A stretch of 64,000 nt of DNA, taken from contig NZ_CP077062.1 in assembly GCF_019039255.1 (NCBI RefSeq), positions 1,488,001 through 1,552,000 of the forward strand. The letters are read 5' to 3'. The position numbers were made by a program, and so were the translations under genes. The notes under the pieces were generated by a model, which was given only the letters and a program-made list of their open reading frames with translations, had not been told where the DNA came from and searched no databases. Numbering within the stretch: position 1 is the stretch's first letter; every line of letters begins with the position of its first letter. This stretch comes from Nocardioides panacis. GTDB lineage: Bacteria > Actinomycetota > Actinomycetes > Propionibacteriales > Nocardioidaceae. Shown piece after piece: positions 17,992 to 46,356 of this stretch.

Positions 17992-18000
17992 AACCCGACG

Positions 18001-18696: not shown

Positions 18697-18702
18697 CCGG
18701 CC

Positions 18703-19691: not shown

Positions 19692-19769
19692 CCGTGACGG
19701 CGGCCACACAACGTCCATGCCGAGCGCAACTCGCGCGCGGGACCAACTCTTCGGGAAGAAGGTGCGCGC

Positions 19770-22136: not shown

Positions 22137-22367
22137 GCAACGAGCAGGTGCTCGCGCAGCAAGGCGTTCCTCCCTGGCGGTGGCCGCGTTCTGCGCGGCT
22201 CCTGCGTGCCATCGTGAGGCACCGCTGCGTGCGTGTCTTTTGACGGCATACCCGCAGGTCAAGCCGTCGCGAGGCTCATACCGGTTACGTCTGATTTGCC
22301 AGGTAAAATATATCTACGCTAGATTTGGGGAGCCCTCGGGGGAAACCGATTCACACCGGAGGCATCC
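22137..22367. other. Intergenic region with AT-rich promoter
   Basis: About 230 bases without a gene. The left part is GC-rich; the right part, 22295-22330, is strikingly AT-rich for this genome and contains the promoter listed separately. No terminator with a T-run is visible after the preceding gene. Confidence 0.55.
22296..22325 (+). promoter_or_regulatory. Sigma-70-type promoter for the beta-helix gene
   Basis: TTGCCA (22296-22301) and TAGATT (22320-22325) are separated by 18 bases, close to the actinobacterial housekeeping consensus TTGAC(A)/TA-n3-T. The spacer is AT-rich (AAAATATATC). Transcription would start near 22332, about 36 bases before the GTG, with GGAGG in between. Confidence 0.6.
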
Positions 22368-24311: not shown

Positions 24312-24377
24312 GCGGGGGAGCCCTGGTCGCTTCACGCGGGACGGGTCAGTCTGTGCATAGCGGAAGCTGGACAGGGT

Positions 24378-25118
24378 CTACGCGCTCGCGTTCGTGGCTT
24401 CCCGCGCGACCTTGTGCTCGTTCGAGCACCGCACGGCCTCGAGGAGCGGCGCGTCCGCGATGCCCTTCAGGATCTCGATGTTCGGCATCACACAGTGTCC
24501 GCCGATGACGCCCGGGAAGAACTTCACGGGCGGAAGGTAGCCGACCTGCTCATAGAACGCGACGACCTCGTCGTAGTCGACACCAACGGCCTCGCAATAC
24601 CGCTCGACCTCCTGTGACCAAGCGATCAGCACACCGAAGTACGTCGTCTCGGTGAGCTTCGCAAGCTCGCTGGCTTCGGGCGAGGACAGGACGGTCGTCC
24701 CCATGCCGAGCGACTCGAAGTGCTGCGTCGCGAGATCTCCCGCGTCGGCGTCGATCGGACCGATGAACTTGTCGTAGTACGTCAGGTCCTCAAGCATCCG
24801 AGCGTGTTTTCCGCGGATCGGACTGTGGACGGTTCGTCCGCCGGTCCGCCCGTGGACGGCCCGAGTCGTTCCGACCCCCACCGTGCTGTTGATCACCGTC
24901 AGCTCCGGGCGCAGGCGGTCCACGTAGCGAGCGGTCTCGCCGACGAAGTCGTCGATCTCGAACGGTATGCACACGTGCATGACCCCGACAGTGCCGGGCC
25001 GCGGCAGCTCACCCGGGGCGACGTCGATGCCGAGCACGTCGGCCTCTGTCTGCCCGATCAGCTCGTAGAGAGGTCGACCGACCTCACCGAGTCCTATCAC
25101 CGCTGTCTTCTTGGCCAT
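24378..25118 (-). CDS. Short UDP-glucose/GDP-mannose dehydrogenase-like protein lacking the C-terminal domain
   Basis: The 246-residue protein has a Rossmann motif, AVIGLGEVGRPLY, at residues 6-18, then VINSTVGVGTT and SPEASELAKLTETTYFG. GVIGGHCVMPN carries C209 at the place of the catalytic Cys of nucleotide-sugar dehydrogenases. Typical enzymes are about 420-440 residues and end with a UDP-binding domain; here the protein stops soon after the Cys block. The frame ends cleanly, so this is a short form, not an obvious break. It is the last gene of the minus-strand operon and its start overlaps the GT4 gene by 35 bases. It could make uronic acids for the island or be a distinct reductase. Confidence 0.7.
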   Translation of the reverse strand: MAKKTAVIGLGEVGRPLYELIGQTEADVLGIDVAPGELPRPGTVGVMHVCIPFEIDDFVGETARYVDRLRPELTVINSTVGVGTTRAVHGRTGGRTVHSPIRGKHARMLEDLTYYDKFIGPIDADAGDLATQHFESLGMGTTVLSSPEASELAKLTETTYFGVLIAWSQEVERYCEAVGVDYDEVVAFYEQVGYLPPVKFFPGVIGGHCVMPNIEILKGIADAPLLEAVRCSNEHKVAREATNASA

Positions 25119-26400
25119 GAGTCCGCTCCTTGAGTAGGTTGCGCATCGATCTCAATCCCGTGAACCGGGTAGTGCGTGAGGCGGCGAGTCCTTCGATCAG
25201 GCTGTGGTACTGCTCGCTCTCGTGGGCCCACGAGTAGTGCTCGAGGAACGTGTCCGCGTTGCGAACCAGCGAATCGCGCAGCTCCGGATCCCGTCGGAGA
25301 GCTACGATCTTCGCGGCCAGGTCGGCGATGTCGCCGGGGCGGACGAACGCGACCATCGTCTCGTCGAAGTACGCACGAATGGTTGACGTCTCGGACGAGA
25401 TGACAGGAAGACCTAGCGCAACGTCCTCGAGCAGCTTCACCGGCAGCATGTACCGCGTGAATGGGTCCTCGACATAGGGGACGATGCCTGCTGACGCGCG
25501 CTCGAACAGCGGTCGTAGCTGCTCGACCGGCCGCATGCCCTCGAAGCGAACCGCCTGACCGAGTCCGCGCGCGTCGACGATGCCCTTGAGCCGCTCCACG
25601 TCGTCGCCCTCGCCGACGATCAGGAGCTCGATGTCGTCGTACGTCTGCCGAGCGATCTCGACGGCACGGACAGCAGTCTCGAGGCCGTGTCGACGCGAGA
25701 CCGTTCCGTGGTACAGAAGCACGAACGGTCCCGAGAGCGAAGGCTCGTTCCGTCGAGAGAAGAACCGCATGTCGGGCGTGTTCATCACGATGCTGAACTT
25801 GGTCTCGCGGTTGCCGTGACGCAGCAGGGCCTCGAGATGCGGGCGGTGCACCGCGAGCGCGCGATCGGCGAGGCGGACGCAGCATCGCTCGACGAAGGTC
25901 ACCAGCTTGATGACCAGACTGCTCTCGTCCACTCCGAACTTGGCTGCGTAGAGCTCGGGAACGAGGTCGTGCACGTCGAGCACGACCTTGGCGCCCAGCA
26001 GCTTCGGCAGCGCCGCAGCCGCGACGAGGTAGTCCGGCATCGTGTTCACCTGGACGACGTCGTACCGGTTCCGGACCTGCAGTCGCAGGGCGGCGACGGC
26101 CGCGCGCACGACGAATGCGACATCACGCTGGATGTAAGCCAGGGGACTCAGCTCGTGCTGCAGCTCGAGCGTCCCGACTGGATGGACGGTAACGCCGTCG
26201 ATCCACCGCCGCCCCCCGAGGCTCGGTGTCCAGGGGCAGATCACGTCCACGCTCATGCCGCGTGCGACGAGCGCTTCCGCCTCCCGGCGAACTCGCGTGT
26301 CCACGGGATAGTTCGTGAAGGCGATCGAGAGCACCCGGTGCTTCCGGCCAGGTGCAGACGCCGTCGCAGGGTCACCGCGGACGGACCAGCGGACCGTCAT
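25084..26400 (-). CDS. Glycosyltransferase family 4
   Basis: This 438-residue GT-B enzyme has an N-terminal acceptor domain (FTNYPVDTRVRREAEALVARG; VVQVNTMPDYLVAAAALPKLLG). The donor domain has LLYHGTVSRRHGLETAVRAV and the EX7E-like region (VPYVEDPFTRYMLPVKLLEDVALGLPVISSE) that contacts the nucleotide sugar. Cytoplasmic, it adds one sugar to the lipid-linked repeat unit. The start ATG overlaps the stop of the FemAB-like gene (ATGA), and the 3' end overlaps the dehydrogenase start by 35 bases. Sugar specificity is not readable. Confidence 0.88.
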   Translation of the reverse strand: MTVRWSVRGDPATASAPGRKHRVLSIAFTNYPVDTRVRREAEALVARGMSVDVICPWTPSLGGRRWIDGVTVHPVGTLELQHELSPLAYIQRDVAFVVRAAVAALRLQVRNRYDVVQVNTMPDYLVAAAALPKLLGAKVVLDVHDLVPELYAAKFGVDESSLVIKLVTFVERCCVRLADRALAVHRPHLEALLRHGNRETKFSIVMNTPDMRFFSRRNEPSLSGPFVLLYHGTVSRRHGLETAVRAVEIARQTYDDIELLIVGEGDDVERLKGIVDARGLGQAVRFEGMRPVEQLRPLFERASAGIVPYVEDPFTRYMLPVKLLEDVALGLPVISSETSTIRAYFDETMVAFVRPGDIADLAAKIVALRRDPELRDSLVRNADTFLEHYSWAHESEQYHSLIEGLAASRTTRFTGLRSMRNLLKERTHGQEDSGDRTR

Positions 26401-27491
26401 GCCGCGAAGTCCCGGTAGAGCAGCTCGCCGGCGAACCTACCCACGAAGGGCGGTGAGCGGCGGATGACCGTCGCCGCCAGGACGTGGCCGCGTCGAGCCG
26501 GGACGTCGTCGCCTGCCAGCGTGCTGTAGGCGAGCGACGTCTCCGCCGCTCCGAACGAACGCTTGAAGGAGCACAGGCTGTCGTGGTCTGCATCCGTCCG
26601 CCCGAAGTCCAGACGCTCGAGTCCGTGCTCGCACGCCCAGCGGATCGTGTCCATGAAGAGCAGGTTGTTCGGGCGCTTGGCCAGAAGGCGAGGGTCTGAG
26701 GCGCCGTACTTGTAGATGAGTGTCCCGTTGGAGGACAAGAACACGGCCGCGGTGGCGGGGACGCGGCCGTCGCGCACGACGACGACGAACCCGAGACCCT
26801 CCGCGAAGAGGTCCTCGAGGGCCATGATGAAGCGACGCGGCTGTGTCGGCACGCCCTGGCGCTTGCGTGTGCGTACGTGCAGGTCGAAGAACTCGCCAAG
26901 GGCACCGCCGTCGGTCCGGAACTCGACGCGCAAACCTTCGCGGCGAGCGCGCCGCTCACCCCGGGCCACCTGCGGCTTCATGCCGCTTACCACCGCCTCG
27001 TAGCCTTGTGTCAGGGAAAGCAGATGATGTCGATAGGTCGAGATCGCCTCCCGCGGGACGCCGGGGAACTCACCGCGCAGCTCGATCGAGAGTGCGTTCT
27101 GTTGCCGGAACTGGTCCAACGCGATCCTCAGCCGGTGCCACTGACTCGCGCGGGCGTCGCGTGCAAGGGGAACGACCACGTCACTGAACGGCAGTGCGAC
27201 GAGCCGGGCTCTGTTCACGCGGCCGCCGACCAGCGCCATCGGCAAGCCGGCCTCGAACCTTCCATCGCCGTCGAGGACTGCGCAGGCGATGACCTGGTAG
27301 CCGTAGACCCGTTCGAGCATCGCGAGCCAGGCTGGGTGGTGGAACGCGCAACTGCCCGAGGCGGTCTGCGCGAGGGCCGCCCAGCGCGGGTCGCGGACCG
27401 GGTCGACGACCGCGAAGCTGGACGGGGGCACGAGCGCGCGCTGCAGGGTTCTGCGGCGGGGGTGCACGAGCGACTCAACCGACATGACCAT
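26397..27491 (-). CDS. FemAB-like GNAT acyltransferase
   Basis: The roughly 362-364-residue protein has the double-GNAT architecture of FemAB/'BioF2-like' proteins. The second GNAT half shows FFDLHVRTRKRQGVPTQPRR, VVVRDGRVPATAAVFLSSNG and LLFMDTIRWACEHGLERLDF, ending with SFKRSFG. FemAB-type enzymes transfer an acyl or aminoacyl group; in exopolysaccharide loci they may add amino acids or acyl groups to sugars. The donor and acceptor here are unknown. It starts inside the ATP-grasp gene's 3' end (ATG 27491 or 27485). It shares an operon with ATP-grasp and deacetylase-like genes, suggesting a joint modification step. Confidence 0.78.
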   Translation of the reverse strand: MVMSVESLVHPRRRTLQRALVPPSSFAVVDPVRDPRWAALAQTASGSCAFHHPAWLAMLERVYGYQVIACAVLDGDGRFEAGLPMALVGGRVNRARLVALPFSDVVVPLARDARASQWHRLRIALDQFRQQNALSIELRGEFPGVPREAISTYRHHLLSLTQGYEAVVSGMKPQVARGERRARREGLRVEFRTDGGALGEFFDLHVRTRKRQGVPTQPRRFIMALEDLFAEGLGFVVVVRDGRVPATAAVFLSSNGTLIYKYGASDPRLLAKRPNNLLFMDTIRWACEHGLERLDFGRTDADHDSLCSFKRSFGAAETSLAYSTLAGDDVPARRGHVLAATVIRRSPPFVGRFAGELLYRDFAA

Positions 27492-28651
27492 GGCGGAGCC
27501 TGGAAGCGAAGATCGAGCCGAGGAGAACGGTGTCGAGCAGGCCGGGCACGGGGTCGTCCGCGGCGATGACCGCGTGCACGAGGGGGCGACGGAAGGACCG
27601 CAGGTAGTCGCGCACCGTCAGCTGCCCGGTGCGCACAGCGGATGCGGCGGCCGGGACGTCGAAGACCAGCCGCATCCAGCCGACACCCGGCCGCGCGTCG
27701 AGGGCACGGACGGGCAGTGCACACGCCATGAGCCACAACAGGTACGGGAAGTCCACGCCGGCCCTCGCACCGAGCGACTGCCAGCCCCACGCACGCGCGT
27801 TGACGTCGAGCAGCAGATTCGCGCCGGTCGTCGGGTCCCGCTTGAACTCGACCTCGACGAGTCCGGTGAGCCGCATCGCCGCCAGCAGTCGGCGTGCGTC
27901 ATCCTCGACGGTCCGGTCCTCGATCGTCTGCACGAACGTGCTGGCTCTCCCGAAGTCCAGTGGGTACTGGCGTGTACGCCGGGCAGTGAGCGAGGCGAGC
28001 ACGCGGCCGTCCCGACACAGCGCGGCAAACGAGTACTGGCCGTCGCCGGCAACGAGTTCCTGGACCATCAACGCCCTCGCTTCCATGAGCCGGCACGCAC
28101 GTTGGTAGAGCGCCGACAAGGTCACCCGGTCGTCGGCGCGCCAGCACTTCGCTGCCGTCAGCTCGTTCGGCACTGCTTTGTGGGCCGGCTTCACCACGAC
28201 GGGGAAACGCTCGACGTGGCTCAGCTGCTCGGCACTCCCGGGAAACATCGTCGCCGGCTGCGCGATCCCGGCCCGTGCTGCCACCTCGTGCATGACCCGT
28301 TTGTCGTAGGCCGCCTCCAGGACGTCCCACGGCGGGACCGTAAGGACCAGGTGCTCGGAGAGCGCCGGATGCAGGCGCGCGATCGTCGCCGCATCCTCGT
28401 CGTCCGTCGCGATCAGCGCCCATCCGGACAGCTGGTTGAGCTCGACGATTCGCAGCAGCTCGTCGTGCCGATCGGCATCGTCCCCCCCGCGGCCAGCGGG
28501 TCGCGCCCACCGTGAAGCGAGAGTACCGCGCAACCGAGTGTTCGTCGGTCTGCAGCACCCAGACGGGAACGCCGTGACGGCCCAGGCTCCTGACCACTGC
28601 GAGCGCCCTGTAAGACGCCCCGGCGACGATCGCGCCCGGACAGCTCGTCAT
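27475..28651 (-). pseudogene. ATP-grasp enzyme; frame broken at a 7-base G/C run
   Basis: The ATG at 28651 overlaps the upstream stop (ATGA) and begins MTSCPGAIVAGASYRALAVV, a pre-ATP-grasp Rossmann-like domain. The frame is lost at the C7 run 28482-28488 (G7 on the coding strand). With six G it continues RWPRGDDADRHDELLRIVEL and reaches the stop at 27475, about 391 residues. The ATP-grasp core shows VVKPAHKAVPN, LMVQELVAGDG and the Mg-binding EVEFKR...LLDVNARAW. This matches carbamoyl-phosphate-synthetase-like ATP-grasp proteins found in polysaccharide clusters; they ligate a carboxylate to an amine. The substrate is unknown. Apart from the one extra base the sequence looks functional. Confidence 0.78.
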
Positions 28652-29755
28652 GCTTCGATGTCGATTCGGTCTCCGACGAGCACCGCGTGCGCCACCGTCA
28701 CGGAAGCAGGAAGCCCGGAAGGAATCCGCCCGGCGAGATCCCGCTCGAGTGTGGCGCGCAGCCGCCACCACGCAGCCACCTCGCGCGGCAGCGCGTGCCA
28801 GCCACCTGCCTGGCCGGTCAGGTGCTCGAGCAGCTGGGCGTACACGTCGAGTCGGTGTGCGTCCGTGTAGTCCGGATGCACGAGGACGTTGACGAGCCCG
28901 CGATGCTTCACGAGCCAATCAGCCTTGGAGATCCAGATGTCCGACGTCCGCTGCTCGAGGATCTCGAAGAGCGTGTGGTCCTGCAGGAGCGTGATCGGTA
29001 GCTCGACCAGGTCGTGCAGGAAGAAGGGCAGGATCGAGCAGCAGCCGCCGGGTTGCGGCTCGAACGGGTCCGTGTCGGGGAACGAGCTGTCATAGAGACA
29101 GCCGAGCTCGTGCATCCACTCGGCCTTGCGGTGGGTGGCGGGCGAGCGAAAGCCCACCACCTCCCACTCGCGCATGTAACGGTGGATGCCGGGCAGCTGC
29201 GACTCGAAGCTGGCCCGGTCGCGGAAGAGAGTCCCCCCTGTGCGTGAGACCGTGCAGTCCGACCTCACCTCCCGCGGCGCGGATCAGCTCGAAGGTCCCC
29301 AGCGGGATCTCGTAGTCCTCCGCAACGAAGTACCACGCGGAGACGAGCCCGTGCCGGCGCTCGACCTCGAGGACCCGTGCGACGTTCGAGAGGCCGACGG
29401 GGCCCTCGACGTCGTGGGTGAGTACGAAGCCGAACCGCTTCGAGTCGGGCCAGAAGTTGAGGAACGGGATGCGGTCGGCTCCACGCCGCTCCATCTCCGC
29501 GCGAAAGAGCTCCTCTTGGAGGCGCACCAACGAGTCCTCGACCGGCCACGCGGGAAACCCGCGCGTCGACCGTCGTCGCCCGTGACGACGGCGGACAGCG
29601 AGTTGCACGCGACGCGGGATGAACGGCTTGAGTGCGTAGTAGGCGTCGAGCCACCGCGAACGCGGCTTCGTCACGTCGTGTGCGCCGTCGAGAAATCCTG
29701 TTGCGTCGAAGAGCGGCTCGGCTTCGTGCGGCCCCTCCGCCGCCGCAGCGGTCAC
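28648..29755 (-). pseudogene. Polysaccharide deacetylase-like protein; frameshifted at a C6 run
   Basis: The GTG at 29755 overlaps the stop of the FAD gene (GTGA). The N-terminal part reads RFGFVLTHDVEGPVGLSNVA (the HD pair resembles deacetylase metal/catalytic residues) and GEVGLHGLTHRG. The frame breaks at 29233-29238. With five bases in the run it continues GTLFRDRASFESQLPGIHRY and WEVVGFRSPATHRKAEWMHE to the stop at 28648, about 368 residues. The H-x3-H-like GLHGLTH and RSP motifs fit the NodB superfamily, in the long cytosolic form seen beside ATP-grasp genes in glycan loci. There is no signal peptide, so it would act on a precursor inside the cell. Confidence 0.74.
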
Positions 29756-30961
29756 AGCTCCTCGCCAACGGGCGCAAGACCCGGAGCAGCAGGCGCCCGT
29801 GACCCAGCGACCTGTTGGGCGAGGGACGCGGCGCCGAACCAGCTGCCGCACACGAACCGCATGACAGGGCCGAAGCTCCAGGCTGCCGGGGCCCCCACGA
29901 AGTGGAGGCCGTGAACGCTGGACTCCATCCCGCTCCGCAGGACCGGATACCCGTTGACCTGCACGACACGACGGGTCAACGACTCCGGCAAGAAGCCGTA
30001 CTTCGACACGTCCACCCGGTAGCCGGTGCCGAACATGACGTGGTCGACCACCCGGCTCGTCCCACGGTTGAAGCGGACGTCCACGCGGTCGCCGTGGGCG
30101 TGCGCTGCCACGACCGTCCGATCCACGTGGATGGGCACGTCCGTGAGGCGCGGTCGCAGCCAGTCCGCACCAGCGGGACGGATCGCACGGTAGGCCATGC
30201 GGTCCTGGACGGGGCGGGGGAGGCGACGGAACAGGTTCGGCACCGAGACGATGCGCGAGATTCCCATAGGACCCACGTCTGTGGGGGCGTACGCCAAGGG
30301 CTCGAACCTGCCGAGCTTCTGGTGGTACTTCGCGCCGTGCAGCCAGTTGATCCTGGGCGCGCGTGCGAAGACCTCGACGGACGCGCCGGCCTCACGCATC
30401 AGGGCGGCACACTCCAAAGCGCTCTGGCCCCCGCCGACCACCAGGACCTGCTTGCCCGAGAAGCGGCTGAAGTCTCGGTGGTCTGCAGTGTGCGAAAGGA
30501 GCTCAGGGGGGCAGCGAAGCGACCACCTCGGGCCGGTTGACGAAGGGCGCAATGCCGGCCGCCACGACCACCTTGTGGGCAGCGACGCGGTCGCCGTCCG
30601 CCAGCGCGACGACGAACCCTCGCGGCTCCTGCTCGACGCTCACGACACGGCGTCGGTCGACGTCCGGTGCTACCGTCGCGTGCACCCACATGCCGTAGTC
30701 GATGAAGCTGTCCAGCGGGACGGGACGCTGTACGTCGGTGCCGGTGGACTCGCAGTAGCTCGTCAGGGACAGAGGTCCCACGTGTTCCGCGATGCTCGTG
30801 GCCGTCCAGTTGGACCGGAGCAGCATCCCTGTGGGCATCGTTCGCCAGAAGCCCATCGGCTCACCGAACGTCAGGACCTCTGCGCCTGCTCGCTTGAGGT
30901 GAGCGGTGGCCGCGAGCCCGTGCGGTCCGGCACCGATGACGACGACCTGTGTGTGGTCCAT
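29752..30961 (-). pseudogene. FAD/NAD(P)-dependent oxidoreductase; frameshifted at a G6 run
   Basis: It begins MDHTQVVVIGAGPHGLAATA (FAD-binding GxGxxG) and continues with LLRSNWTATSIAEH. The printed frame stops at ASLPP because of six bases at 30506-30511. With five it reads ASLPPELLSHTADHRDFSRF, followed by the second dinucleotide motif KQVLVVGGGQSALECAALM. It ends with FVGAPAAWSFGPVMRFV near the C-terminus, about 402 residues. The two-motif layout is that of flavin monooxygenase/SidA-type oxidoreductases. As first gene of the minus-strand operon it may oxidise an amine or sugar before the ligation steps; that is inference. Its stop overlaps the next gene's GTG. Confidence 0.76.
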
Positions 30962-31401
30962 CCGGGATTTCCAATGTTCGTCAGGGGGTTACACAGGCCA
31001 AGTTTGCTTGCGGTTCTGCGATCGGTCACGGATGCGCAGGCAATGCGCACGGAATTGGCGACAGTGGGTGGGCGGAGGTGAGCCGAACGAGCCATATAGC
31101 CCTCAGACAGAGGTGGTCCGGTCGAGACCCGCGGTCCGGCTTCCCGGACAGCCCGCGGAACTCCCTAACATCCACAAGATCCGAGATCTAGTCCGGCGCA
31201 CCGGCGCGAGCGCGGGCGGTCAACCACGTGCCAAGCCCGGGTTACTTCCGGTCGGAATCTGCGGAGAGCCTGAGCATGGTGTTCGGCGCATCACCTCGAG
31301 GAATTGCGTGCCGAACAATTGACCACGACACGACTCGCGAGGAAACTCCGTTCTCGGAGGCGGCGCTTTTCGGCGCTTTCCGACCGGACTCCCCGGTGGT
31401 T
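30962..31401. other. Non-coding right end of the island
   Basis: About 440 bases with no credible gene on either strand and mixed composition. It should contain the promoter for the minus-strand FAD-to-dehydrogenase operon and the right end of the island. I could not assign a promoter with confidence. Confidence 0.5.
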
Positions 31402-32730
31402 TCAGGCGCCGCTGGCGTCGAAGAACCGAGCAGTGGACGGCGACCAGATCTCGGTCAGCTGAGCCTGCGCCTGGAACCACTCGTCGCGTCGGCACCGCCG
31501 CCGGTCCAGCCGCCCGTCGATGACGGTGAGCGCCTCGGGGTAGCGGCCGGCCTTCACCAGCGCGCATATCCGGGTCTCCTCGACGACCTCGCGCTGGGCG
31601 TCGCTGCCGCCCACCCGGCCCAGCTGCGGCGCCAGCGCGGCGATCGCGTCGGCGGCGCCCGACGGGTCGCCGAGCACCAGGCGGCGCAGCGCCCGGGCCA
31701 GCGGGGCGGTGACCTCGACGTGGGTGGGGTCGGTGCGAGCCGCGCAGGACCGCGCGAGCGTCGCCAGTCCCTCGGCGTCCTCGGCGGCGCACAGCACGAC
31801 CGCGGCGTGCATCGCCATGAACGGCGACTGGGGCGAGGCGAGCAGCGCGGAGTCGACGACCGCGAGCACCTCCTCGATCCTCGGCACCGCGGTGCTGCCC
31901 GGCGTCAGGGCCCAGCGCCACAGCAGCGAGCCGCTGTCCACGAGGTTGCGGCACCCCAGGCCGGGCTGCGGCCGGAGCTGTGCGTCGTACCGCAGGCGGA
32001 CGGCGTCCAGGTCGCCCATCGACAGCTCGTGCATGGCCGCGTGCCAGGAGAAGTGGCACAGGCTGTCGGCCTGCGCACCAGCGCCGGTGATCCAGCCGTC
32101 CATCCAGGCCAGGCCGCCGGTGTGGTCGCCGGTCTCGTAATGCGCGTGCGCCCGGGCGTGCGCCGAGTGGCCGGCGCCGGGCTCGACGTCGAGCGAGAGG
32201 CAGGACAGCTCCATGGCCTCGTCGAAGCGGCCCTGCTCCTGCCGCATGAACGCGAGCAGGCCGGTGAACCACCAGTCGTCGCCGTAGGCGGGGGCGCACC
32301 GCTCGACGATCTCCCAGGCGTCCCGGGGAACGGTCGTGACCCCGGCGAAGGCGATCGTCGGGACCGCGACCGAGAGCAGCAGGGCGTCGGTGGGGTGCCG
32401 GCGCAGGTGCCGGACCAGCGGCCCGGAGTCGCCGCCGACGTGCCGGGCGACCGCCTCGACGTGGCTGCGCTCACGCTCCGTGCTGCGGCGGGCGTGCAGC
32501 CGGGCGTCCCGCAACCGGGCCTCGATGTCGACGGGGGCGCAGAGCTCGTGGCCGAGCAGGGCCAGGGCCGCGTGGCCGAGCGCGAAGGTCGGGTCCAGGG
32601 CGACGGCGGCCGCGACCGCGTGCAGCGCGCCCTCCTCGAGCCGGAGCAGGTTGCCCACGCCTCGGTTGTAGGCCGCAACCGCTTCCACCCCGCCGGTGAG
32701 CGGAAGGCCGTACCGGTCCACACATCCCAT
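31402..32730 (-). CDS. Tetratricopeptide repeat protein 38 (TTC38)-like protein
   Basis: A 442-residue all-helical protein built from TPR-like pairs: DPTFALGHAALALLGHE, DDWWFTGLLAFMRQEQGRFD, HSAHARAHAHYETGDHTGGL and CHFSWHAAMHELSMGD. The conserved His-rich H-x-x-W-H pattern is characteristic of the TTC38 family. The family is widespread but its biochemical role is unknown. The last 19 residues (QLTEIWSPSTARFFDASGA) are encoded by the complement of the right-hand repeat. At the other repeat copy the complement would encode QLTEIWSPSTETFFSASAD with the stop at the same distance. Its natural partner downstream was therefore probably the Rieske gene. Confidence 0.75.
   Translation of the reverse strand: MGCVDRYGLPLTGGVEAVAAYNRGVGNLLRLEEGALHAVAAAVALDPTFALGHAALALLGHELCAPVDIEARLRDARLHARRSTERERSHVEAVARHVGGDSGPLVRHLRRHPTDALLLSVAVPTIAFAGVTTVPRDAWEIVERCAPAYGDDWWFTGLLAFMRQEQGRFDEAMELSCLSLDVEPGAGHSAHARAHAHYETGDHTGGLAWMDGWITGAGAQADSLCHFSWHAAMHELSMGDLDAVRLRYDAQLRPQPGLGCRNLVDSGSLLWRWALTPGSTAVPRIEEVLAVVDSALLASPQSPFMAMHAAVVLCAAEDAEGLATLARSCAARTDPTHVEVTAPLARALRRLVLGDPSGAADAIAALAPQLGRVGGSDAQREVVEETRICALVKAGRYPEALTVIDGRLDRRRCRRDEWFQAQAQLTEIWSPSTARFFDASGA
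31439..31465 (+). repeat. 27-bp direct repeat, right copy (candidate attR)
   Basis: Identical to 10615-10641 and in the same orientation. In the Rieske reading frame the sequence leading into it encodes QAPLASKNRAVDGDQISVS followed by a stop, a diverged version of the Rieske C-terminus (QSALAEKKVSVEGDQISVS). So the right end carries a second Rieske tail. Matches over the 37 bases to its left are 26 of 37. Confidence 0.85.
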
Positions 32731-33245
32731 GTAAGAACACTAAACAACTAGGGTTAGAACTCCAAGCCCGCCACTCCGCGGGATCGTCTCGCTTTCTGAG
32801 ACGCCGAGGCGGGCGACGCGCAAAATTTTTCGGTGTTTCCCGTTTGTTACCACCGCGGTCGTCGCCTGGTCGCCCTGCGTTTTCACGCCTGAAGGTCGGA
32901 TGATTCGTGTAGATCCTCCGACCCGCGCGGTTGCGGCGGTCCGGACCGGTTCGACCCGCTCGGCGGCATTCCGGGGACCGTGCGCCCTGTCGGCTAGCCA
33001 GTTTTGACTATGGCGGGGGCTCGCGGCCGATCCCAAGGATGGTTGCTCAGCACCGGGATCCGTCCCGGTGACAAGCAAAGCGGCCCGGGGAGCAGACGCC
33101 GTTTTTGGGGGAGGCCCGGGGGGGGCATCCATCAGAGTCAGCGCCGGGTACGTGCGGGAACTCGACTCCACGCACGCACCCGGCCACGTCGTTCCAACTC
33201 CTCCACGGTGAGTCCCTGCGGTCGCGCTCTTCCCGGAGGCGTTAC
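32731..33245. other. Intergenic region with structured leader upstream of the second glycan operon
   Basis: About 515 bases without a gene. The part next to the TPR gene is AT-rich (AACACTAAACAACTAGGGTT) and probably holds its promoter. At 33051-33070 there is a perfect 8-bp hairpin, CACCGGGA-TCCG-TCCCGGTG, followed by ACAAGCAAAGCGGCCCGGGG and a short T-run at 33101-33105. This could be a structured leader or attenuator for the glycan operon beginning at 33246. CCCGGAGGCGTTAC is the ribosome site for that gene. Confidence 0.45.
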
Positions 33246-34136
33246 ATGGAGACACAGCGGCAAGATGTGGAACCCGCGGACATCATCATTCCCCAAGACC
33301 TCCTGCCTGCGCAGCCCAACGGTCACAGGGTGGTCCCCGGGGTCAACGGCGGGGAACGGGCCACGACCGGCGCCACGGCGCCCTCGCCGCTGCACCCCGT
33401 CCCCTCGGACCAGCGGGTCGGGCTGCGCGTCAGCGTGGTGATCCCGACCCTCAACGAGGTCGGCAACATCGCGGCGGTGCTGGAGCAGATGCGCCGGTTC
33501 GACGACATCATCATCGTCGACGGGTTCTCCCAGGACGGCACCGTCGAGAAGGCCCGCTCGGTGCGACCGGACGTCCGGGTCGTCGAACGGCCGCCCCGCG
33601 GGAAGGGCGACGCCCTGCGGGCCGGCTTCGAGGCGGCGACCGGCGACGTCATCGTGATGATGGACGCCGACGGGAGCATGGACCCCGGAGAGGCCGACGT
33701 CTTCGTCGCGATGCTCAACGTGGGCTTCGACCTGGTGAAGGGCTCCCGGCTCGCCTGCGGCGGTGGGTCCCACGACCTGACCACCGTGCGCTGGCTGGGC
33801 AACCGGGCGCTGTGCGGGCTGGCCAACGCGTTGTTCCACACGCAGTGGACCGACCTCTGCTACGGGTACGTCGCCTTCCGGCGTTCGGCCCTGCCGCGGC
33901 TCGCGCTGACCGCGAACGGGTTCGAGATCGAGTCCCAGATCCTCAGCCACGCCGCACTGGCCGGCCTGCGGATCGCGGAGATCCCGAGCGTGGAGTTCCC
34001 GCGGATCACCGGTGACTCGCACCTCAACGCCCGCAAGGACGGCACCCGCGTCCTGAAGGAGATCCTCACCGCGCGCTTCTCGCCCCGGGCCCGGCGCTCC
34101 GCCGTCGCCCTCCGACCGATGATCCCCGTCGAGTAG
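33246..34136 (+). CDS. Glycosyltransferase family 2 (polyprenyl-phosphate-sugar synthase type)
   Basis: A 296-residue GT-A enzyme. After a 60-residue unstructured N-terminus the catalytic domain begins RVSVVIPTLNEVGNIAAVLE. IIVDGFSQDGT, PPRGKGDALRAGFEAATGDV and the DxD-like VMMDADGSMDPGE follow. This is the dolichol-phosphate-mannose-synthase-like subgroup, which commonly makes polyprenyl-phospho-sugars used by membrane glycosyltransferases. A membrane GT-like protein is encoded later in the same operon (40723), consistent with that role. GGAGG lies 5 bases before the ATG. First gene of the operon. Confidence 0.85.
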   Translation: METQRQDVEPADIIIPQDLLPAQPNGHRVVPGVNGGERATTGATAPSPLHPVPSDQRVGLRVSVVIPTLNEVGNIAAVLEQMRRFDDIIIVDGFSQDGTVEKARSVRPDVRVVERPPRGKGDALRAGFEAATGDVIVMMDADGSMDPGEADVFVAMLNVGFDLVKGSRLACGGGSHDLTTVRWLGNRALCGLANALFHTQWTDLCYGYVAFRRSALPRLALTANGFEIESQILSHAALAGLRIAEIPSVEFPRITGDSHLNARKDGTRVLKEILTARFSPRARRSAVALRPMIPVE

Positions 34137-34150
34137 GCGGGAACTGGGGG

Positions 34151-36598
34151 ATGTTCGACATGCATCGCACACACGTCCTGCGACGCGGCATCGCCGCGCT
34201 GACCACGCTGCTGCTGGCCGCGAGCGGCATCAGCCTGGTGGCTACGAAGGCCTCGGCCGCCGTCGACGTCGGCTACGTCGGTCCGTCGTACGCCGGAACC
34301 ACCCAGCAACCGAACGCGCCGACGGCGGAGAAGCCGCAGAGCAAGCTGTGGTATGCCCAGGACAAGTGGTGGGGGGCGATGTGGGACACCGCGTCCAACG
34401 ACTACGTCGTGTGGGGCTACGACTGGACCAAGCACGAGTGGGCCAAGACCCCCACGGTGCTCGAGACCCGCACCCGGGTGGACATGGACGTCCTGTGGGA
34501 CGGAACCCACCTGTATGTCGTGTCCACCCCCAAGACCAGCGGACCGAATCCCCCGGCCGACACCACCACGCTGTTGCGGCGATTCTCCTTCGACGCGGTC
34601 AAAGGGTCATGGATCTCCGACGGGACACCGGTCCAGCTCGCCTCCGGCCTGAGCTACTCGCCGGTGATCGACAAGGACAGCACGGGCACGCTCTGGGTGA
34701 CCTACACGACCGGCGTCCCGGGCGTCGACCCGGTGCACGACCCGACCGCCGACACGACGCGCGCCGCCAGGGTGATGATCACGCACTCGCAGCCCACCGA
34801 CGACCGGGCCTGGGTGGCGCCCTACCAGCTGCCGACCCCCGACGACTCCTCGACCGTCACCTTCGACCCAGCCAAGGACCCCGGAGGGCAGCCGTCGAGC
34901 GACATCGCCGCAGTCGTCTCCTTCGACGGCAACAAGGTGGGTGTGCTGTGGAGCAACCAGCGCACGCAGAAGGTGCACTGGGCGACCCACGTCGACGGCG
35001 ACCCCGACCAGACCTGGGCCACGAGCGTGGCGTACGACAATCCTCAGGGGTCCGACGACCACCTCAACATCAAGTCGGTCGCCGGCGGCAACGCCGGCCG
35101 CGTCTTCGCGGTCGCGAAGACCTCCCACACGGGGGCGACCGATCCGCTGATCAACCTGCTCTACCTCGACCTCCAGGGCAACTGGAGCGCTCGGCCGTTC
35201 GCCACCGTCGCCGACAACGTCACCCGGGCCAGCGTGGTCATCGACTCGGACCACCACGACCTGTACGTCTTCGCGGCCGGTCCCTGCTGCGCCGGCGGCA
35301 CGATCTACTACAAGAAGACCCCACTGGCCAACCCGACGTTCGGATCCGGCCCAGGCACCCCGTTCATCTTCAGCAACGCGAACCCCGAAGCGAACAACGT
35401 CACGACGACCAAGCAGACGGTCACCTCAGCCTCGGGCCTGCTGGCCCTGGCAGGTGACGACCAGACCCGCACCTACCTCTACAACCAGCTCGAGCTCGGC
35501 ACGGGCACGACGATCTCCACCAAACCCGCGGCCTCGGTGGCGACGGGGGACGCCACGTTCGAGTTCACGGCCACCGAGCCGGGTGCCACGTTCCTGTGCT
35601 CGCTCGACGGCGCGGTCCCAGCGGCTTGCACCTCTCCTCAGAGCTACACCGGGCTCACGAACGGCAACCACACGTTCTCCGTGCGGGGCGTCGGGGCGGC
35701 CGGGGCGCAGGACGGGACCCCCGTGACGTACACCTGGAACGTCGCCGTGCCGGCCGGTGACACGGTCGCGCCGAGCACGGGGATCTCGCTGCGGCCGAAG
35801 GCCGTGAGCACGGCGCGCGAGGCGGCGTTCACGCTGGTCTCCGACGAGGCCGGCTCGACCTTCCGGTGCTCGCTCGACGGCAAGCCCGCCGTGGTCTGCA
35901 CGTCGCCGGTGGTCTACCGCGGCCTCGCGGACGGCGACCACACGTTCGCGGCGGCCGCCGTGGACGCGGCCGGCAACGCCGACGCCACGCCGGACGTGTA
36001 CTCCTGGAAGATCACCCCGTGGTTCTTCGACGGCTTCTCGTCGAAGAACTTCACGCACGGCGGCTGGCTGGCGCGGCACTCCCGCACCGGCAGCACCGCC
36101 GTCGTCAAGAACGCGGTGTACCCCGGTGACACCGGCGCCCGGATCCGCAGCGTGGCCCGCCGCGGCTCCACGGCATCGATCACCAAGCGGCTCCCGGCCG
36201 CGAGCAGCACCCTGGGCTTCTCCTGGGTGGGCCGCGTCGGCCGCCCGGGACTGCGCGGCCAGACCGTCGACGTGGCCAGCCTGCGCAACGCCGCCGGGAA
36301 GGTGGTGCTCAGCGTGGAGCGCGTCTCCTCGAACGGCAAGCTGCGGGTCCGGCTCCCGGGCGGCGTCACCCCGGCGGTGAAGGGGCCGGCGGTGGCCCAG
36401 CGTGCCCGGTTCATGCTGGACGTGACCGTCAACCCACGGGGCAAGGACGCCTGGGCGTTGTCGGTGGACGGTCGCACCGTGCTGAAGCGGAGCGCGTCGA
36501 ACCTCGGCAGCTCCGGACTGCGCAGCCTGCGGTTCGGCAGCGTCGCCGGGGGCCGGAGCCTCGACTACCGCGTCGACAGCGTGAAGGTGTGGCAATGA
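34151..36598 (+). CDS. Large secreted protein with propeller-like domain, two Ig-like repeats and a C-terminal sandwich-like domain
   Basis: 815 residues with a signal peptide (1-36, cleavage near ASA-A). Residues about 60-450 form a repeated beta domain with KLWYAQDKWWGAMWD (WWGAMWD at 73-79), VLWDGTHLYVVS, LWVTYTTG, VGVLWSNQRTQKVHWATH and LYVFAAGPCC (C379-C380). The same pattern occurs in the protein at 42546. Two Ig-like repeats follow (TFLCSLDGAVPAACTSP; TFRCSLDGKPAVVCTSP), then a roughly 180-residue domain like a carbohydrate-binding sandwich. I do not recognise a named family for the first domain. It may bind or process the exported glycan. It starts 14 bases after the GT2 stop and its own stop overlaps the next ATG. 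Confidence 0.72.
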   Translation: MFDMHRTHVLRRGIAALTTLLLAASGISLVATKASAAVDVGYVGPSYAGTTQQPNAPTAEKPQSKLWYAQDKWWGAMWDTASNDYVVWGYDWTKHEWAKTPTVLETRTRVDMDVLWDGTHLYVVSTPKTSGPNPPADTTTLLRRFSFDAVKGSWISDGTPVQLASGLSYSPVIDKDSTGTLWVTYTTGVPGVDPVHDPTADTTRAARVMITHSQPTDDRAWVAPYQLPTPDDSSTVTFDPAKDPGGQPSSDIAAVVSFDGNKVGVLWSNQRTQKVHWATHVDGDPDQTWATSVAYDNPQGSDDHLNIKSVAGGNAGRVFAVAKTSHTGATDPLINLLYLDLQGNWSARPFATVADNVTRASVVIDSDHHDLYVFAAGPCCAGGTIYYKKTPLANPTFGSGPGTPFIFSNANPEANNVTTTKQTVTSASGLLALAGDDQTRTYLYNQLELGTGTTISTKPAASVATGDATFEFTATEPGATFLCSLDGAVPAACTSPQSYTGLTNGNHTFSVRGVGAAGAQDGTPVTYTWNVAVPAGDTVAPSTGISLRPKAVSTAREAAFTLVSDEAGSTFRCSLDGKPAVVCTSPVVYRGLADGDHTFAAAAVDAAGNADATPDVYSWKITPWFFDGFSSKNFTHGGWLARHSRTGSTAVVKNAVYPGDTGARIRSVARRGSTASITKRLPAASSTLGFSWVGRVGRPGLRGQTVDVASLRNAAGKVVLSVERVSSNGKLRVRLPGGVTPAVKGPAVAQRARFMLDVTVNPRGKDAWALSVDGRTVLKRSASNLGSSGLRSLRFGSVAGGRSLDYRVDSVKVWQ

Positions 36599-37522
36599 GC
36601 CGGATCTCCACCAGCGTGGTGGTCTGCGCATGGACCGTGGACCGCTGGTCCCAGATGGTCGCCGCGCTGGCGTCCGCGCTGGACCAGCGGCCCGGGCCGG
36701 ACCAGGTGGTCCTGGTGGTCGACCACAGCGACGAGCTGCTGTCCCGGTCGGCCGCCTCGCTGGACCCGCGGGTCCAGGTGATAGCCAGCACGGGGTCCCG
36801 GGGGCTGTCCGGTGCCAGGAACACCGGCGTCGCCGCCGCCACCGGGGAGGTGGTGCTGTTCCTCGACGACGACGCCGAGGCGCACCCCGGTTGGCTGGCC
36901 GGCCACGTCCGGCACTACGAGGACCCCTCGGTCCTCGGCGTCGGAGGGCTGGTCGTCCCCGCGTGGGCCGACCGGCGCCCGACCTGGTTCCCGCCGGAGT
37001 TCGGCTGGGTGGTCGGCTGCTCGTACGTCGGCCAGCCCACCGCCACCGCCGAGATCCGCAACCCGATCGGGGCGAACATGTCCTTCCGCCGGGACGCGGT
37101 GCGGACCGTCGGCGGCTTCTCGGAGTCGATGGGCCGGATCGGGGCCGGTGGGCAGGGCTGCGAGGAGACCGAGATCAGCCTCCGGCTGGCCCGGGCCTTC
37201 CCGCAGGGCCGGATCCTCTTCGAGCCTGCCGCCGGCGCGCACCACCACGTCGCCGCGGAGCGCGGCACCTGGACCTACTTCCGCCGGCGCTGCTTCGCCG
37301 AAGGGCGCAGCAAGGCCACCATGCGCCGGCTGGAGGGCTCGCGGGCCGCGCTGGGCGCGGAGCGCGACTACGTGCGCAGGACCCTGCCGCGCGGGCTGCG
37401 CACCCACCCCGCACGGGCCTTCGCGGTCGCCGCGGGTCTCGCCCTCACGAGTGCCGGGTTCGTCGTGGAGACGAGCCGCCGGCACCCCACGAGTCTCGAT
37501 CACGAACAGGGGACATCCATGA
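36595..37522 (+). CDS. Glycosyltransferase family 2; C-terminal end uncertain
   Basis: About 300 residues. The GT-A fold begins STSVVVCAWTVDRWSQMVAA and has RGLSGARNTGVAAATGEVVL, FLDDDAEAHPGW (metal-binding acids), GANMSFRRDAV and GCEETEISLR. It matches actinobacterial GT2 proteins of about 300 residues. The printed frame has no stop and runs into the next gene. If one C is removed from CACCCCACG near 37485-37490, the protein ends RHPRVSITNRGHP with a TGA at 37520-37522, overlapping the next ATG (ATGA) as elsewhere in this operon. So an indel is likely, but a true fusion is not excluded. Confidence 0.75.
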
Positions 37523-38632
37523 GGCACGAGACGGCACCGCCCGACCGGTGGCTGCACTTCGACCTGCACGGGCTGCTCGGCATCCGTGTCGAGCGGGACG
37601 CCCCCGCGGCCGCCCAGCTGCGCATGATGCTGGCCTGCTTCGCCAGCGACACCGAGGTCCCGGCCGACATCGTCGTCTCCCGTGAGTTCGAGGACGTCGG
37701 GGTCACCTGCCAGCTCGAGGACGAGCTGAACTACTCCCCGCACAGCGTGGAGCTCGTCCAGGACCGGGTCCAGGTCGTCCGGGACGGGGACCAGGTCCGC
37801 ATCCACGGCGACGGCGAGCTGCTCACCACGCTCGTGCCGCTGCTGGACCGGGCGATGGTCGGGCGCGGCGCGGGCATGATCCACGCCGCCACCGTGGCGT
37901 ACCGCGGCTACGCGATCGCGCTGCCGGCCGGTGGCGGGACCGGCAAGACCAGCAGCATCGCCAAGCTGATGCGCCGGGACGGCTACTCCTTCCATGGGCG
38001 ACGACTGGGCCTTCCTGGGCGACGACCGGACGCTGCTCGGCTACGCCAAGCCGATGTTCATCAGGTCGCACCACCGGACGATCTACCCGCACCTGTTCCA
38101 GGGCGTCCGCAAGCCGATGGTGCCGACGGTGCTCTCCCGCCCGCTCGGCCGGCTGAGCACGGCCGTGCACCCGCACATCATCCGGTACCCCCAGCTGGCC
38201 GACCTCGCCCGGCGCTGGTCGCCCGAGCACCGGATGGTCGACGCCGCCCTCGCGCTGCCGGGGGTACCGGTGACGACGCACGCCCCGCTGCTGGCCTCGA
38301 TCTACGTCGAGCGGCACTCCGGGCCGACGGTCGAGCTGACCGAGGTCACGCGGGACTGGATGGTCGACCGGGTGATGGGCAACTTCCACCTCGAGATGCC
38401 CGGCTTCTCCCAGACCCTGGTGACCGCCCTGGCCGCGACGTCGATGACGTCGTGGCGGGACCTGGTCACGGCGAAGAGCGACGTGCTGGCCAAGGGCCTG
38501 GACGGGCTGCCGTGCTACCTGCTGCAGGTCCCGAGCCGGCTGTCGGCCGACCAGGCCTCCGACGAGGTCGTCACCGTCCTGGACGAGCTGGTGCCGTCCT
38601 TGCTCGACGCCGAGGCGAGCGCCGCCTCATGA
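37519..38632 (+). pseudogene. HprK-like kinase/P-loop protein of a glycan locus; frameshifted near 37993
   Basis: The ATG at 37519 has AGGGGAC upstream. The protein reads DRWLHFDLHGLLGIRVERD and later MIHAATVAYRGYAIALPAG, then GGTGKTSSIAKLM (Walker A). Just after, GGCTACTCCTTCCATGGGC has one base too many: removing one C gives GYSFMGDDWAFLGDDRTLLG, which joins a second frame ending at 38632. The restored protein is about 370 residues. The Walker A followed by F-x-GDDW-x-F resembles HPr-kinase/phosphorylase-like proteins in glycan and lasso-peptide loci. A role in phosphorylating a sugar or controlling the machinery is inference. Confidence 0.65.
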
Positions 38633-39450
38633 GCCGGGCCGTCCCCACCGCCGCCGGCATCACCGCCGTCGTACCGGTGCGCAACGCCGAGGCGCTGGTG
38701 GGCCCCTGCCTCGAGTCGCTGCGCCGCAACGGCGTGACCCGGGTGGTGGTGGTCGACGGGCTGTCCACCGACTGCTCGCGGGAGGTGGCCCGGGCGCACG
38801 GCGCCACGGTGCTCAGCGACGAGGGCGGCGGCCTGCCGCTGGCCCGCACGCTCGGCGCCCAGGCGGCCGACACCCGGTGGGTGCTGATGGTCGACACCGA
38901 CGTCGTGGTCCCGGACGGGGTCCTGGACCGGCTGCTCGAGGAGTACCACCTCGGCGGGTACGCCGCGCTGCAGGCGGGCCTGGAGAGCGTCTCGGGGCCC
39001 GGCTACTGGGGCCAGGCGCTGGCCTACCACCACCTGCACGGACGCAGCCGCTGGTGGTTCGGCCTGGTCGCCACCGTCATCGAGCGCGACCTGCTGCTGC
39101 GCACCGGCTTCGACCCCCGCTTCGAGTCCGGCGAGGACATCGAGCTGCGCTGGCGGCTGGAGTCGCAGGGGCACAAGGTCGGCGTCTCCCGCAGCGCCCT
39201 GGTCTCGCACCACTTCGCCGGCGACGACTTCGCCTTCGCCAAGGACCAGTTCCTGATGGACGGGACCGGCCTGGGCCTGATGGTGCGCAAGCACGGCTGG
39301 CGGGGGAGCCGGCTCTTCGCGCTGCCGGTGGCGGCGGCCGCACGCGGGGTGGCGCTGAGCGTCCGGGACCGGCAGCCGCAGTGGGCGCGGTACTTCGCGG
39401 CGTACTGCTGGTTCAACTACGTCGGCATGCGACGGGGGCTGGCCCGGTGA
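38629..39450 (+). CDS. Glycosyltransferase family 2
   Basis: 273 residues. GT-A motifs are ITAVVPVRNAEALVGPCLES, VVVDGLSTDCSREVARAHGA, VLMVDTDVVVPDGVLDRLL (DxD) and FDPRFESGEDIELRWRLESQ. The start ATG overlaps the stop of the kinase-like gene (ATGA), and its stop overlaps the flippase GTG (GTGA). It presumably adds one residue to the lipid-linked unit exported by the next gene's product. There is no clear membrane span. Donor and acceptor are unknown. Confidence 0.87.
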   Translation: MSRAVPTAAGITAVVPVRNAEALVGPCLESLRRNGVTRVVVVDGLSTDCSREVARAHGATVLSDEGGGLPLARTLGAQAADTRWVLMVDTDVVVPDGVLDRLLEEYHLGGYAALQAGLESVSGPGYWGQALAYHHLHGRSRWWFGLVATVIERDLLLRTGFDPRFESGEDIELRWRLESQGHKVGVSRSALVSHHFAGDDFAFAKDQFLMDGTGLGLMVRKHGWRGSRLFALPVAAAARGVALSVRDRQPQWARYFAAYCWFNYVGMRRGLAR

Positions 39451-40730
39451 ACGCGGGGACCGCCGACACGCTCGCCGCGGGGAACGCCCGGCTCTCGCTG
39501 CCGGCCCGCTCGGTCTGGCTGGTGTGCGCCAAGGGCGTGCAGATGGGCGGCGGCTTCCTGTTCTGGATCGTGGCCGCGCGGAGCGCGACGGTGCCCGACG
39601 TGGGCCTCGCCGTCGCCACCGTCTCCGCGGTGATGCTCTGCACCCAGCTGGGCATCCTCGGCGTGGGGTCGGCCGCGATCATCGCCCTGGGCGGTGGACG
39701 TCCGGTCCGGCAGGTGCTGGACAGCTCGTTCACCGTCGTCGTGGCGGCGAGCCTGCTGTGCGGCGCCGGCTACCTCGTGTTCGCCCGCGTGGGTGACTCG
39801 CCCGCCGCGGCGTCCGGCGTGCTGTTCGTGCTGCTGTTCCTGGTGGCGGCGAGCGCCGGGACCTGCGTGATCTGCCTGGACCAGGTCTCGATCGCCCTGC
39901 ACCACACCGAGGGCGCCGCGCTCCGCTACGCGCTCGGCAGCGTCGTCGCGCTGTCCGCCGTCGGCGCGCTGGCCCTGGCGCCGGGTCGCGCCACTCCGTT
40001 CGAGCTGGTCGCCACGTGGACGCTGGGCTCGGTGGTGTCGGTGGCCGTGGGCACCTTCCAGCTGCGCCGCTGGGCCGGCTACCGGTTCCGCCCGAGCCTG
40101 AGCCGCCGTCCCGCCTGGATGCTGGTCCGCACCGGCGTGCCCAACCAGATGCTCACCCTCACCGAGCGGCTCTCCCCGGTCCTGGTGCCGCTGATCCTCG
40201 CGCACGTGGTGTCGCCGACGCAGGCGGCGTACTGGTACCCCGCCTGGATGATGGTCTGGGCCGCCTTCACCGCGCCGATCAGCGTCGGCATGGTGCAGTT
40301 CGCCGACATCGTGCGTCGTCCGCAGGACGCCGGGAGGATCGTCCTGCTCGGGCTCAAGTGGTCGCTGCTGCTCGGCGGCTGCCTGTGCCTGGTGCTGGTC
40401 GTCGCGGCCGGCCCGCTCCTCGGCCTGCTCGGCGGCGTGTACGCCGACGCGTCGACCGGCGCCCTGCGGGTGCTGACGCTCGGGCTGGCCCCGTTCGTCG
40501 TCCTGCAGGCCTACAACGCCTACTGCCGGGCCACCGCCCGGACCCGTGAGGCGACGCTGCTCGGGCTGCTGCTCCTCGTCGTGGTGTCCGTGGGCACCGC
40601 GGCGGTGGGGTCGCACGGCCCGCTCGCCGTAGCCGTGGTCTGGGTCTCCGCGACCGCGCTCGCGTCGGTCTTCGCCGGCACCCGCCTGTTGTCCGTGCTC
40701 CACCGAACCGAGGACGCCGTCCATGGCTGA
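39447..40730 (+). CDS. Wzx-type polysaccharide flippase (MATE/PST superfamily)
   Basis: 427 residues with about 12 hydrophobic helices. N-terminal LPARSVWLVCAKGVQMGGGF followed by FWIVAARSATVPDVGLAVA is the usual start of oligosaccharide flippases. Charged loops such as RLSPVLVPLILAHVVSPTQA separate the two six-helix halves. It would flip the lipid-linked oligosaccharide made by the three GT2 enzymes of this operon. It is a different family from the MurJ-type flippase of the island, supporting two separate export systems. GTGA overlap with the upstream gene. Confidence 0.83.
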   Translation: MNAGTADTLAAGNARLSLPARSVWLVCAKGVQMGGGFLFWIVAARSATVPDVGLAVATVSAVMLCTQLGILGVGSAAIIALGGGRPVRQVLDSSFTVVVAASLLCGAGYLVFARVGDSPAAASGVLFVLLFLVAASAGTCVICLDQVSIALHHTEGAALRYALGSVVALSAVGALALAPGRATPFELVATWTLGSVVSVAVGTFQLRRWAGYRFRPSLSRRPAWMLVRTGVPNQMLTLTERLSPVLVPLILAHVVSPTQAAYWYPAWMMVWAAFTAPISVGMVQFADIVRRPQDAGRIVLLGLKWSLLLGGCLCLVLVVAAGPLLGLLGGVYADASTGALRVLTLGLAPFVVLQAYNAYCRATARTREATLLGLLLLVVVSVGTAAVGSHGPLAVAVVWVSATALASVFAGTRLLSVLHRTEDAVHG

Positions 40731-44441: not shown

Positions 44442-44632
44442 GTTCCGCGCGGCGCCTCCTCAGCGACCCGCACCTCGCGCTGCGGCGCCGCAACCGATCC
44501 CCCCGGGTGGTGGCGGCCGACGATCTCCCGCCGACCCCGCTTGCCGCGTGGGCCGGCCGTGCGCAGGGACCGCTCCCGGTCCTGCGCGCGCTGTCGGCCG
44601 CCCCGTCCGGGGAACGACGGGCGAGACCTTAG
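44438..44632 (+). CDS. Small hypothetical protein at the end of the glycan operon
   Basis: A 64-residue frame whose ATG overlaps the stop of the membrane propeller protein (ATGA), the spacing used by the other genes of this operon. It is Arg/Pro/Ala-rich (MSSARRLLSDPHLALRRRNR) with no membrane helix. Nothing in it is recognisable. It could be a small accessory protein or chance, since high-GC DNA gives long open frames. Confidence 0.35.
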   Translation: MSSARRLLSDPHLALRRRNRSPRVVAADDLPPTPLAAWAGRAQGPLPVLRALSAAPSGERRARP

Positions 44633-44788
44633 GTCCCGCGCGACGGCCGCTCCGGCCGCCGTTGCGCCGCGGAGGTGCACTGACCGGTCGGTCCCTCCGC
44701 CGTGGGGGCGGGCAGCGCGCCGACGTCGCGGCCCCCGGCGACACCGTCGAGTGCGCTGCCGCGTCCGCCCCGGTCCTGCCGACCGGGC
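44633..44788. terminator. Hairpin-containing gap between convergent glycan operon and manC
   Basis: The spacer between convergent genes contains GACGGCCGCTCCGGCCGCCGT, an imperfect inverted repeat of about 8 bp, which may terminate transcription from one or both sides. No T-run follows. Otherwise I see nothing in this stretch. Confidence 0.35.
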
Positions 44789-46226: not shown

Positions 46227-46356
46227 GGCTCCCCCCTGAGCGGTGGCGAGACGATCGGCTCCACCGTAGACCGGGCCGGCGGGGGCGCCCATCCCCACAG
46301 ATGACCAGGTTTCGCCCGCCCGGTCGGGTGTCGGGTCTCGCCCGTAGGCTTGGGAC

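Follow-up and report, generated by a model that had tools for sequence, protein, structure and literature searches.

The convergent genes for a Rieske [2Fe-2S] protein and a TTC38-like protein are separated, in the window (the whole stretch of 64,000 nucleotides analysed here), by an exopolysaccharide island of 20,760 bp, both edges of which carry a direct copy of the Rieske 3' end. We lean towards an explanation in which the island would have entered through a single precise crossover within 27 bp, the donor carrying a Rieske tail that was already degenerate. The locus is made up as follows.

7106..10114, + strand: uvrA, left conserved anchor (Pfam UvrA domains; 74-93% identity over the best stretches at the relatives' loci examined)
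10216..10638, + strand: Rieske [2Fe-2S] protein gene, intact, 140 aa (Pfam Rieske 4.7e-14; best relatives up to 63% identical)
10578..10641, + strand: left copy of the 64-bp repeat (Rieske 3' end plus 3 bases past the stop)
10615..10641, + strand: left 27-bp identical core (presumed crossover segment)
10642..31401, no strand: exopolysaccharide island, 20,760 bp (composition; genes missing from the relatives' locus)
31402..31465, + strand: right copy of the 64-bp repeat (degenerate Rieske tail of 37 bp plus the 27-bp core)
31439..31465, + strand: right 27-bp identical core
31402..32730, - strand: TTC38-like gene, 442 aa (its C-terminal codons lie in the right repeat copy; 59-80% identity to nine aligned homologues)
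32731..46356, no strand: second interruption, from TTC38 to uvrC (GT2, large proteins without Pfam match, a mannose-1-phosphate guanylyltransferase/isomerase-like protein)
46357..48345, + strand: uvrC, right conserved anchor (Pfam UvrC domains; after TTC38 in the six relatives compared)

The names of uvrA, Rieske, uvrC and rapZ come from Pfam; the TTC38 name is that of an earlier note on this DNA only, and the protein had no Pfam or NCBIfam match.

The two copies of the repeat are identical at 53/64 bases (83%), with 26 of 37 positions matching in the 5' half and 27/27 in the 3' half. The 64-bp duplicated unit described in the earlier note was reproduced in its coordinates and in both match counts, and was also recovered independently by repeat finding as family D6 (64 nt, 83%). 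In the 4.9-Mb genome the 27-mer core has two sites only, even allowing 3 mismatches. Both copies translate forward as a Rieske end, as had been claimed: the left one reads QSALAEKKVSVEGDQISVS and the right one QAPLASKNRAVDGDQISVS, each followed by a stop codon, which ends at 31462 in the right copy. The reverse reading also agreed with the earlier description, both copies giving QLTEIWSPST, nine further residues and a stop 37 bases from the 27-mer; the present TTC38 ORF ends QLTEIWSPST-ARFFDASGA, with its stop at 31402-31404. A permissive gapped alignment continues the repeat to the left of 31402, but this extension was rejected, its anchored form giving P=0.30 against shuffles.

The island nature of the insert is apparent from its composition and from its absence elsewhere. 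G+C in 2-kb windows is about 65-69% in the island and 70-77% in most of the flanks, with shifts near both edges. None of the island genes lies between uvrA and uvrC in the same-genus genomes compared, and the other fetched Rieske/TTC38 loci are without them except for two weak single-gene matches.

The uninterrupted order can be read from relatives. TTC38-like genes were found in 16 of the 58 genomes searched, own genome counted, and the locus set comprised 79 distinct loci of named genomes, two of which (L094 and L095) come from one genome. TTC38 and a neighboring convergent Rieske gene share one stretch in 56/79 loci; the two ORFs overlap at 25 of these (two, L077 and L122, being inflated by read-through), are <200 bp apart at 18 and at least 200 bp apart at 13. 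The order in the relatives is uvrA and Rieske reading towards TTC38, then uvrC, and the six loci compared in detail have uvrA, Rieske, TTC38, uvrC and the following genes in that order. The window shows the same gene order broken twice, at 10.64-31.40 kb and at about 32.7-46.3 kb. Within the genus, three genomes (G001, G003, G006) have uvrA-Rieske-uvrC with TTC38 absent, and in another (G004) Rieske and TTC38 overlap on a short contig. A fifth (G002; L056, 4500-4960) has uvrA-TTC38-uvrC with no Rieske match at the locus, its Rieske gene having apparently been lost or relocated.

Joined in silico at the repeat, the window flanks yield a whole Rieske gene together with a TTC38 frame of 442 aa, overlapping by 61 bp; TTC38 would then end QLTEIWSPST-ETFFSASAD, with its length unchanged. 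The proposal that an insertion had split a convergent Rieske/TTC38 pair is therefore upheld by the order in relatives and by the two open frames. The predicted overlap in the uninterrupted state stands for the joined flanks; among the 56 convergent loci, the two ORFs overlap in 25 and do not in 31. It had further been suggested that the duplication preserves both proteins. Indeed, both frames are open with the island present or removed, but as a selective argument this is weak for TTC38, because its C-terminus is unconserved: conservation among the nine aligned homologues fades near residue 416, and the last ~19 residues are the unconserved part. Since conservation thins there, the TTC38 tail seems free to vary. 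At the right junction, 10 bases lie between the Rieske stop and conserved TTC38 sequence and L110 has 9, therefore no sequence seems to have been lost.

Genomic islands insert at gene 3' ends. The ancestral locus would have had the order uvrA-Rieske-TTC38-uvrC, with the two convergent 3' ends overlapping by about 61 bp. The 20.8-kb cluster might have entered it via one reciprocal (Campbell-type) crossover within the 27 bp at the Rieske 3' end, the incoming DNA bearing an already degenerate copy of the Rieske tail adjoining the same 27 bp. After insertion, the left junction would hold the whole Rieske gene, which stays whole because the 27-bp core ends 3 bases after its stop, and the right junction would supply TTC38 with a new nine-residue end and a stop. 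The donor would have been circular or repeated, and the recombination may have been carried out by RecA or by an integrase, either one acting in trans or one since lost. Where two sequences that differ beforehand cross over within a shared segment, perfect identity, here over 27 bp, is left abutting a diverged half, here by 30%. Such a juxtaposition is unlikely under uniform drift, and the model would explain it together with the precise junctions. The G+C shifts near both edges, the uninterrupted order in relatives and the patchy occurrence of the cluster, whose outer genes and order recur elsewhere, also favor it.

The state of the right copy was assessed by comparison with 124 Rieske tails (107 distinct), of which 96 in register were used and 11 out of register were excluded; P-A at a set position served to define the register, and P-A conservation was therefore not taken as evidence. 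A smaller set of 75 consisted of the 83 tails of TTC38 loci minus 6 out of register and minus two from a repeated genome. Against the 96 in-register tails, the nearest sequence to the right 37 bp is the resident left copy (26/37), the best other tail being L070 (24/37), followed by G029 (23/37) and by L013 and G006 (22/37). The G004 tail, one of the 11 excluded, is longer by a codon; once shifted by one codon, it is 22/37 identical to the right copy. Mean identity to the 96 tails is 16.5/37 for the right copy and 19.8 for the left one; the right copy is less typical than 95/96 of them, just one being less typical, and none of the 75 tails of TTC38 loci is as atypical. At tail column 18, two before the conserved V of V-x-G, it has Arg where I/V/F/L stands in 96/96 tails, and it so lacks the hydrophobic residue expected of a functional Rieske C-terminus. 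When the right tail was compared with 341 family genomes, two candidates being scored per genome, its own left copy was found at 2e-12 and nothing else was comparable, the next match being 1.6e-4 over 27 bases. Because it is atypical, carries Arg at column 18 and has the resident copy as its nearest match, the right copy is best described as a Rieske tail that has degenerated and is closest to the resident one, and it looks non-functional. By codon position, the 11 differences between the two copies fall 5/2/4, and functional tail pairs that differ at 9-13 positions average 4.5/2.9/4.3; likewise, at least 7 amino-acid changes occur between the two copies and in 37 of the 146 functional tail pairs with 11 differences. 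The codon-position pattern was discarded as uninformative, as functional tail pairs show a similar one.

To the earlier note, the diverged half looked like the Rieske tail of a different strain, such as an integrating element would carry; the version weighed here is that of an integrating element with a functional tail taken from another lineage. The right copy does keep the Rieske reading register, its P-L-A and V-D-G-D-Q-I being residues often seen in relatives, and the resident copy is nearest to it by a small margin, 26 against 24 of 37. However, it is the resident copy, not a different lineage, that is closest, and the Arg in a column that is otherwise I/V/F/L, a mean identity below that of 95/96 tails and the lack of a comparable match in the 341 family genomes (two candidates scored in each) all speak against this origin. 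A functional tail of another lineage is an unlikely source of the right copy and a degenerate tail from a related lineage a possible one; we find the version of the earlier note, taken as a whole, very improbable.

The closeness of the two copies could also be explained if the insertion had itself copied 64 bp, the left copy being held by selection on the Rieske gene and the right half having drifted. That the right 37 bp are atypical, and closer to the left copy than to any of the 96 tails, would suit such a history. Nevertheless, all 11 changes lie in one half: if 11 mismatches were scattered randomly over 64 positions, as under uniform drift, 27 matches in a row would arise at the 3' end with P=0.001 and at any position with P=0.014 (the boundary was set post hoc). 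Moreover, the TTC38 end is too poorly conserved to protect 27 bp including synonymous sites, and we judge this history unlikely.

Alternatively, the right copy might be what is left of a tandem gene. Two ancestral Rieske genes would have stood before TTC38, with the island between them; the second would have been lost except for the 64 bp overlapping TTC38, and the 27-bp identity would reflect a recent duplication or gene conversion. Rieske tandems are often met ahead of TTC38 (the locus set, with its 83 tails, has 25 A/B pairs), and the similarity of the right copy stops at the TTC38 stop codon, as expected if the overlap alone had been kept. In Nocardioides mangrovi (L094/L095, one genome) the tandem tails are 53/64 identical with a 21-base run, much as here, but the other 23 pairs are only 30-42/64 identical, with runs of at most 15. 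Against a tandem origin, too, all four same-genus genomes in which Rieske occurs here (G001, G003, G004 and G006; G005 was left out) have it as a single copy. This explanation appears somewhat unlikely to us. The two N. mangrovi loci, which both have tandem Rieske genes, are near-identical and lie on two scaffolds, and one of them may be an assembly duplicate.

A recombinase was sought in the window and around it. The genome has six tyrosine recombinases, all outside the window, and no recombinase Pfam match was obtained in the 18 island ORFs or the six end ORFs. Three of these six recombinases, used as queries against the fetched loci with all long ORFs over the matches, detected no integrase there. 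Rieske and TTC38 are separated by at least 120 bp in 18 loci, and a repeated-tail score exceeding every shuffle was obtained in two of these (L084, L122); in both, the compared stretch includes the tail of a second, tandem Rieske gene, which accounts for the score. The remaining 16 had no repeated tail above the highest shuffle, and reuse of the attachment site elsewhere was not found. The 21-base core did not occur in viral contigs, and the island was absent from phage and plasmid collections save for one 38-base match. Literature searches gave no report linking a Rieske gene with attB, integrase and a genomic island, beyond one broad review, and, judged by titles, no work on Nocardioides exopolysaccharide islands. 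Of the marks of a site-specifically integrated genomic island, three are present here: both edges repeat the 3' end of the target directly, the target is intact, and the site is uninterrupted in relatives. An integrase gene in the element, usually near one end, and use of the same attachment site in other genomes were not found.

These results bear on the crossover model as well, against which stand the absence of any recombinase match, of reuse of the site and of the core in viral contigs, as well as of long flanking repeats at the five gfo-to-fad clusters elsewhere. Likewise against it, six other tails match the left copy at least as well as the right copy does (26/37): G029 29/37, L070 28, three at 27 and one at 26. 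The insert is a candidate integrating element at most, as no recombinase was seen in the 18 island and six end ORFs and related clusters elsewhere are without long flanking repeats. For the same locus to represent a mobile exopolysaccharide cassette, whose attachment site would lie in the convergent-gene overlap and whose tail would complete the Rieske end on the left and the TTC38 end on the right, seems quite improbable.

The junction may be set beside known systems. PAISt is a genomic island at the bacA 3' end of Streptomyces turgidiscabies (PMC4057263); like the window island, it is a large cargo block placed where a protein-coding gene of an actinobacterial chromosome ends. PAISt has an 8-bp palindrome, and the window repeat consists of 27 identical bases and a degenerate extension. 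In the window, direct repeats lie at the edges and the target gene is whole; unlike in PAISt-type islands, the targeted Rieske gene overlaps a neighbor that converges on it, and unlike in these islands and ICEs, no integrase was found and no transfer genes appeared in Pfam scans. In homology-facilitated illegitimate recombination, foreign DNA is joined beside a homologous segment and no dedicated integrase is involved; one end is homologous and the other illegitimate (PMC3240628), in contrast to the window, where the same 27 bp stand at both junctions. We regard the junction as a tidy and fairly ordinary genomic-island junction, which leaves the understanding of island integration unchanged. 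It offers a precisely bounded example of a surface-polysaccharide cluster entering a chromosome at overlapping gene ends, neither gene being broken.

The island itself contains the following genes and domains.

11312..18696, + strand: Gfo/Idh/MocA oxidoreductase, DegT aminotransferase, hexapeptide transferase, sugar transferase, MurJ-like flippase (Pfam; NCBIfam below cut-offs)
within 11312..18696, + strand: 484-aa protein without Pfam match and chain-length-determinant-like protein (Pfam; NCBIfam below cut-offs)
18777-19691 and 21276-22103, + strand: two related domain copies (repeats D1-D3, D5)
19770-22136, + strand: ORF with the second domain copy and a polysaccharide deacetylase domain (Pfam)
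22368-24311, + strand: protein of no assigned family
24378..30961, - strand: UDP-sugar dehydrogenase-like, glycosyltransferase, FemAB/GNAT and ATP-grasp proteins (Pfam; cluster homologues)
24378..30961, - strand: gene without Pfam match, in two frames, and FAD/NAD oxidoreductase, in two frames (Pfam; cluster homologues)

The order of the genes at 11312..18696 is conserved in other family genomes. The proteins of the two domain copies are 61% identical and the copies are spaced by 2424 bp; L185 also has two places matching that domain, and the remaining matching fetched regions show one. The genes at 28648-29851 and 29752-30961 are each split over two frames, and their counterparts in L182 are open in one. 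Since each frame overlap contains a six-base homopolymer (C at 29233-29238, G at 30506-30511) and the L182 frames are open, the two splits may be sequencing errors or real frameshifts.

Relatives of the island protein encoded at 16537-17991 occur in 11/341 family genomes, own genome counted, and the cluster is patchy. Nine of ten other regions with matches were compared, four of these nine being shorter or cut by the stretch or contig. Five of the nine (L182, L185, L186, L187, L188) share the order from gfo to fad (gfo-degT-acylT-sugT-murJ...fad, a Nocardioidaceae cluster), with 14 or 15 of the 18 island ORFs matched. Three island ORFs (22368-24311, 24378-25118 and 26397-27491) are without counterpart throughout the nine regions, and the glycosyltransferase, where it is matched at all, has a single match of only 25-28% identity. 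Because no uvrA, Rieske, TTC38 or uvrC match was found in the compared stretches of the nine regions, these clusters sit elsewhere in their genomes. No match to the 27-bp core exceeded 19/27 in the nine regions, and the five gfo-to-fad clusters showed no exact flanking direct repeat of >14 bases in the stretches compared. From these comparisons, the cluster occurs as a unit at varied places and is not bound to the Rieske site.

At the second interruption, no exact direct repeats of at least 12 bases were found, nor were any between the Rieske tail of G029 and the stretch before uvrC in that genome. G029 has a GT2 that is 76% identical, together with weaker relatives (23-38%) of other genes of the second interruption, between Rieske and uvrC. 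Since G029 also has such genes at this position, the uvrA-uvrC interval may be a collecting place for polysaccharide genes, in the window and in G029.
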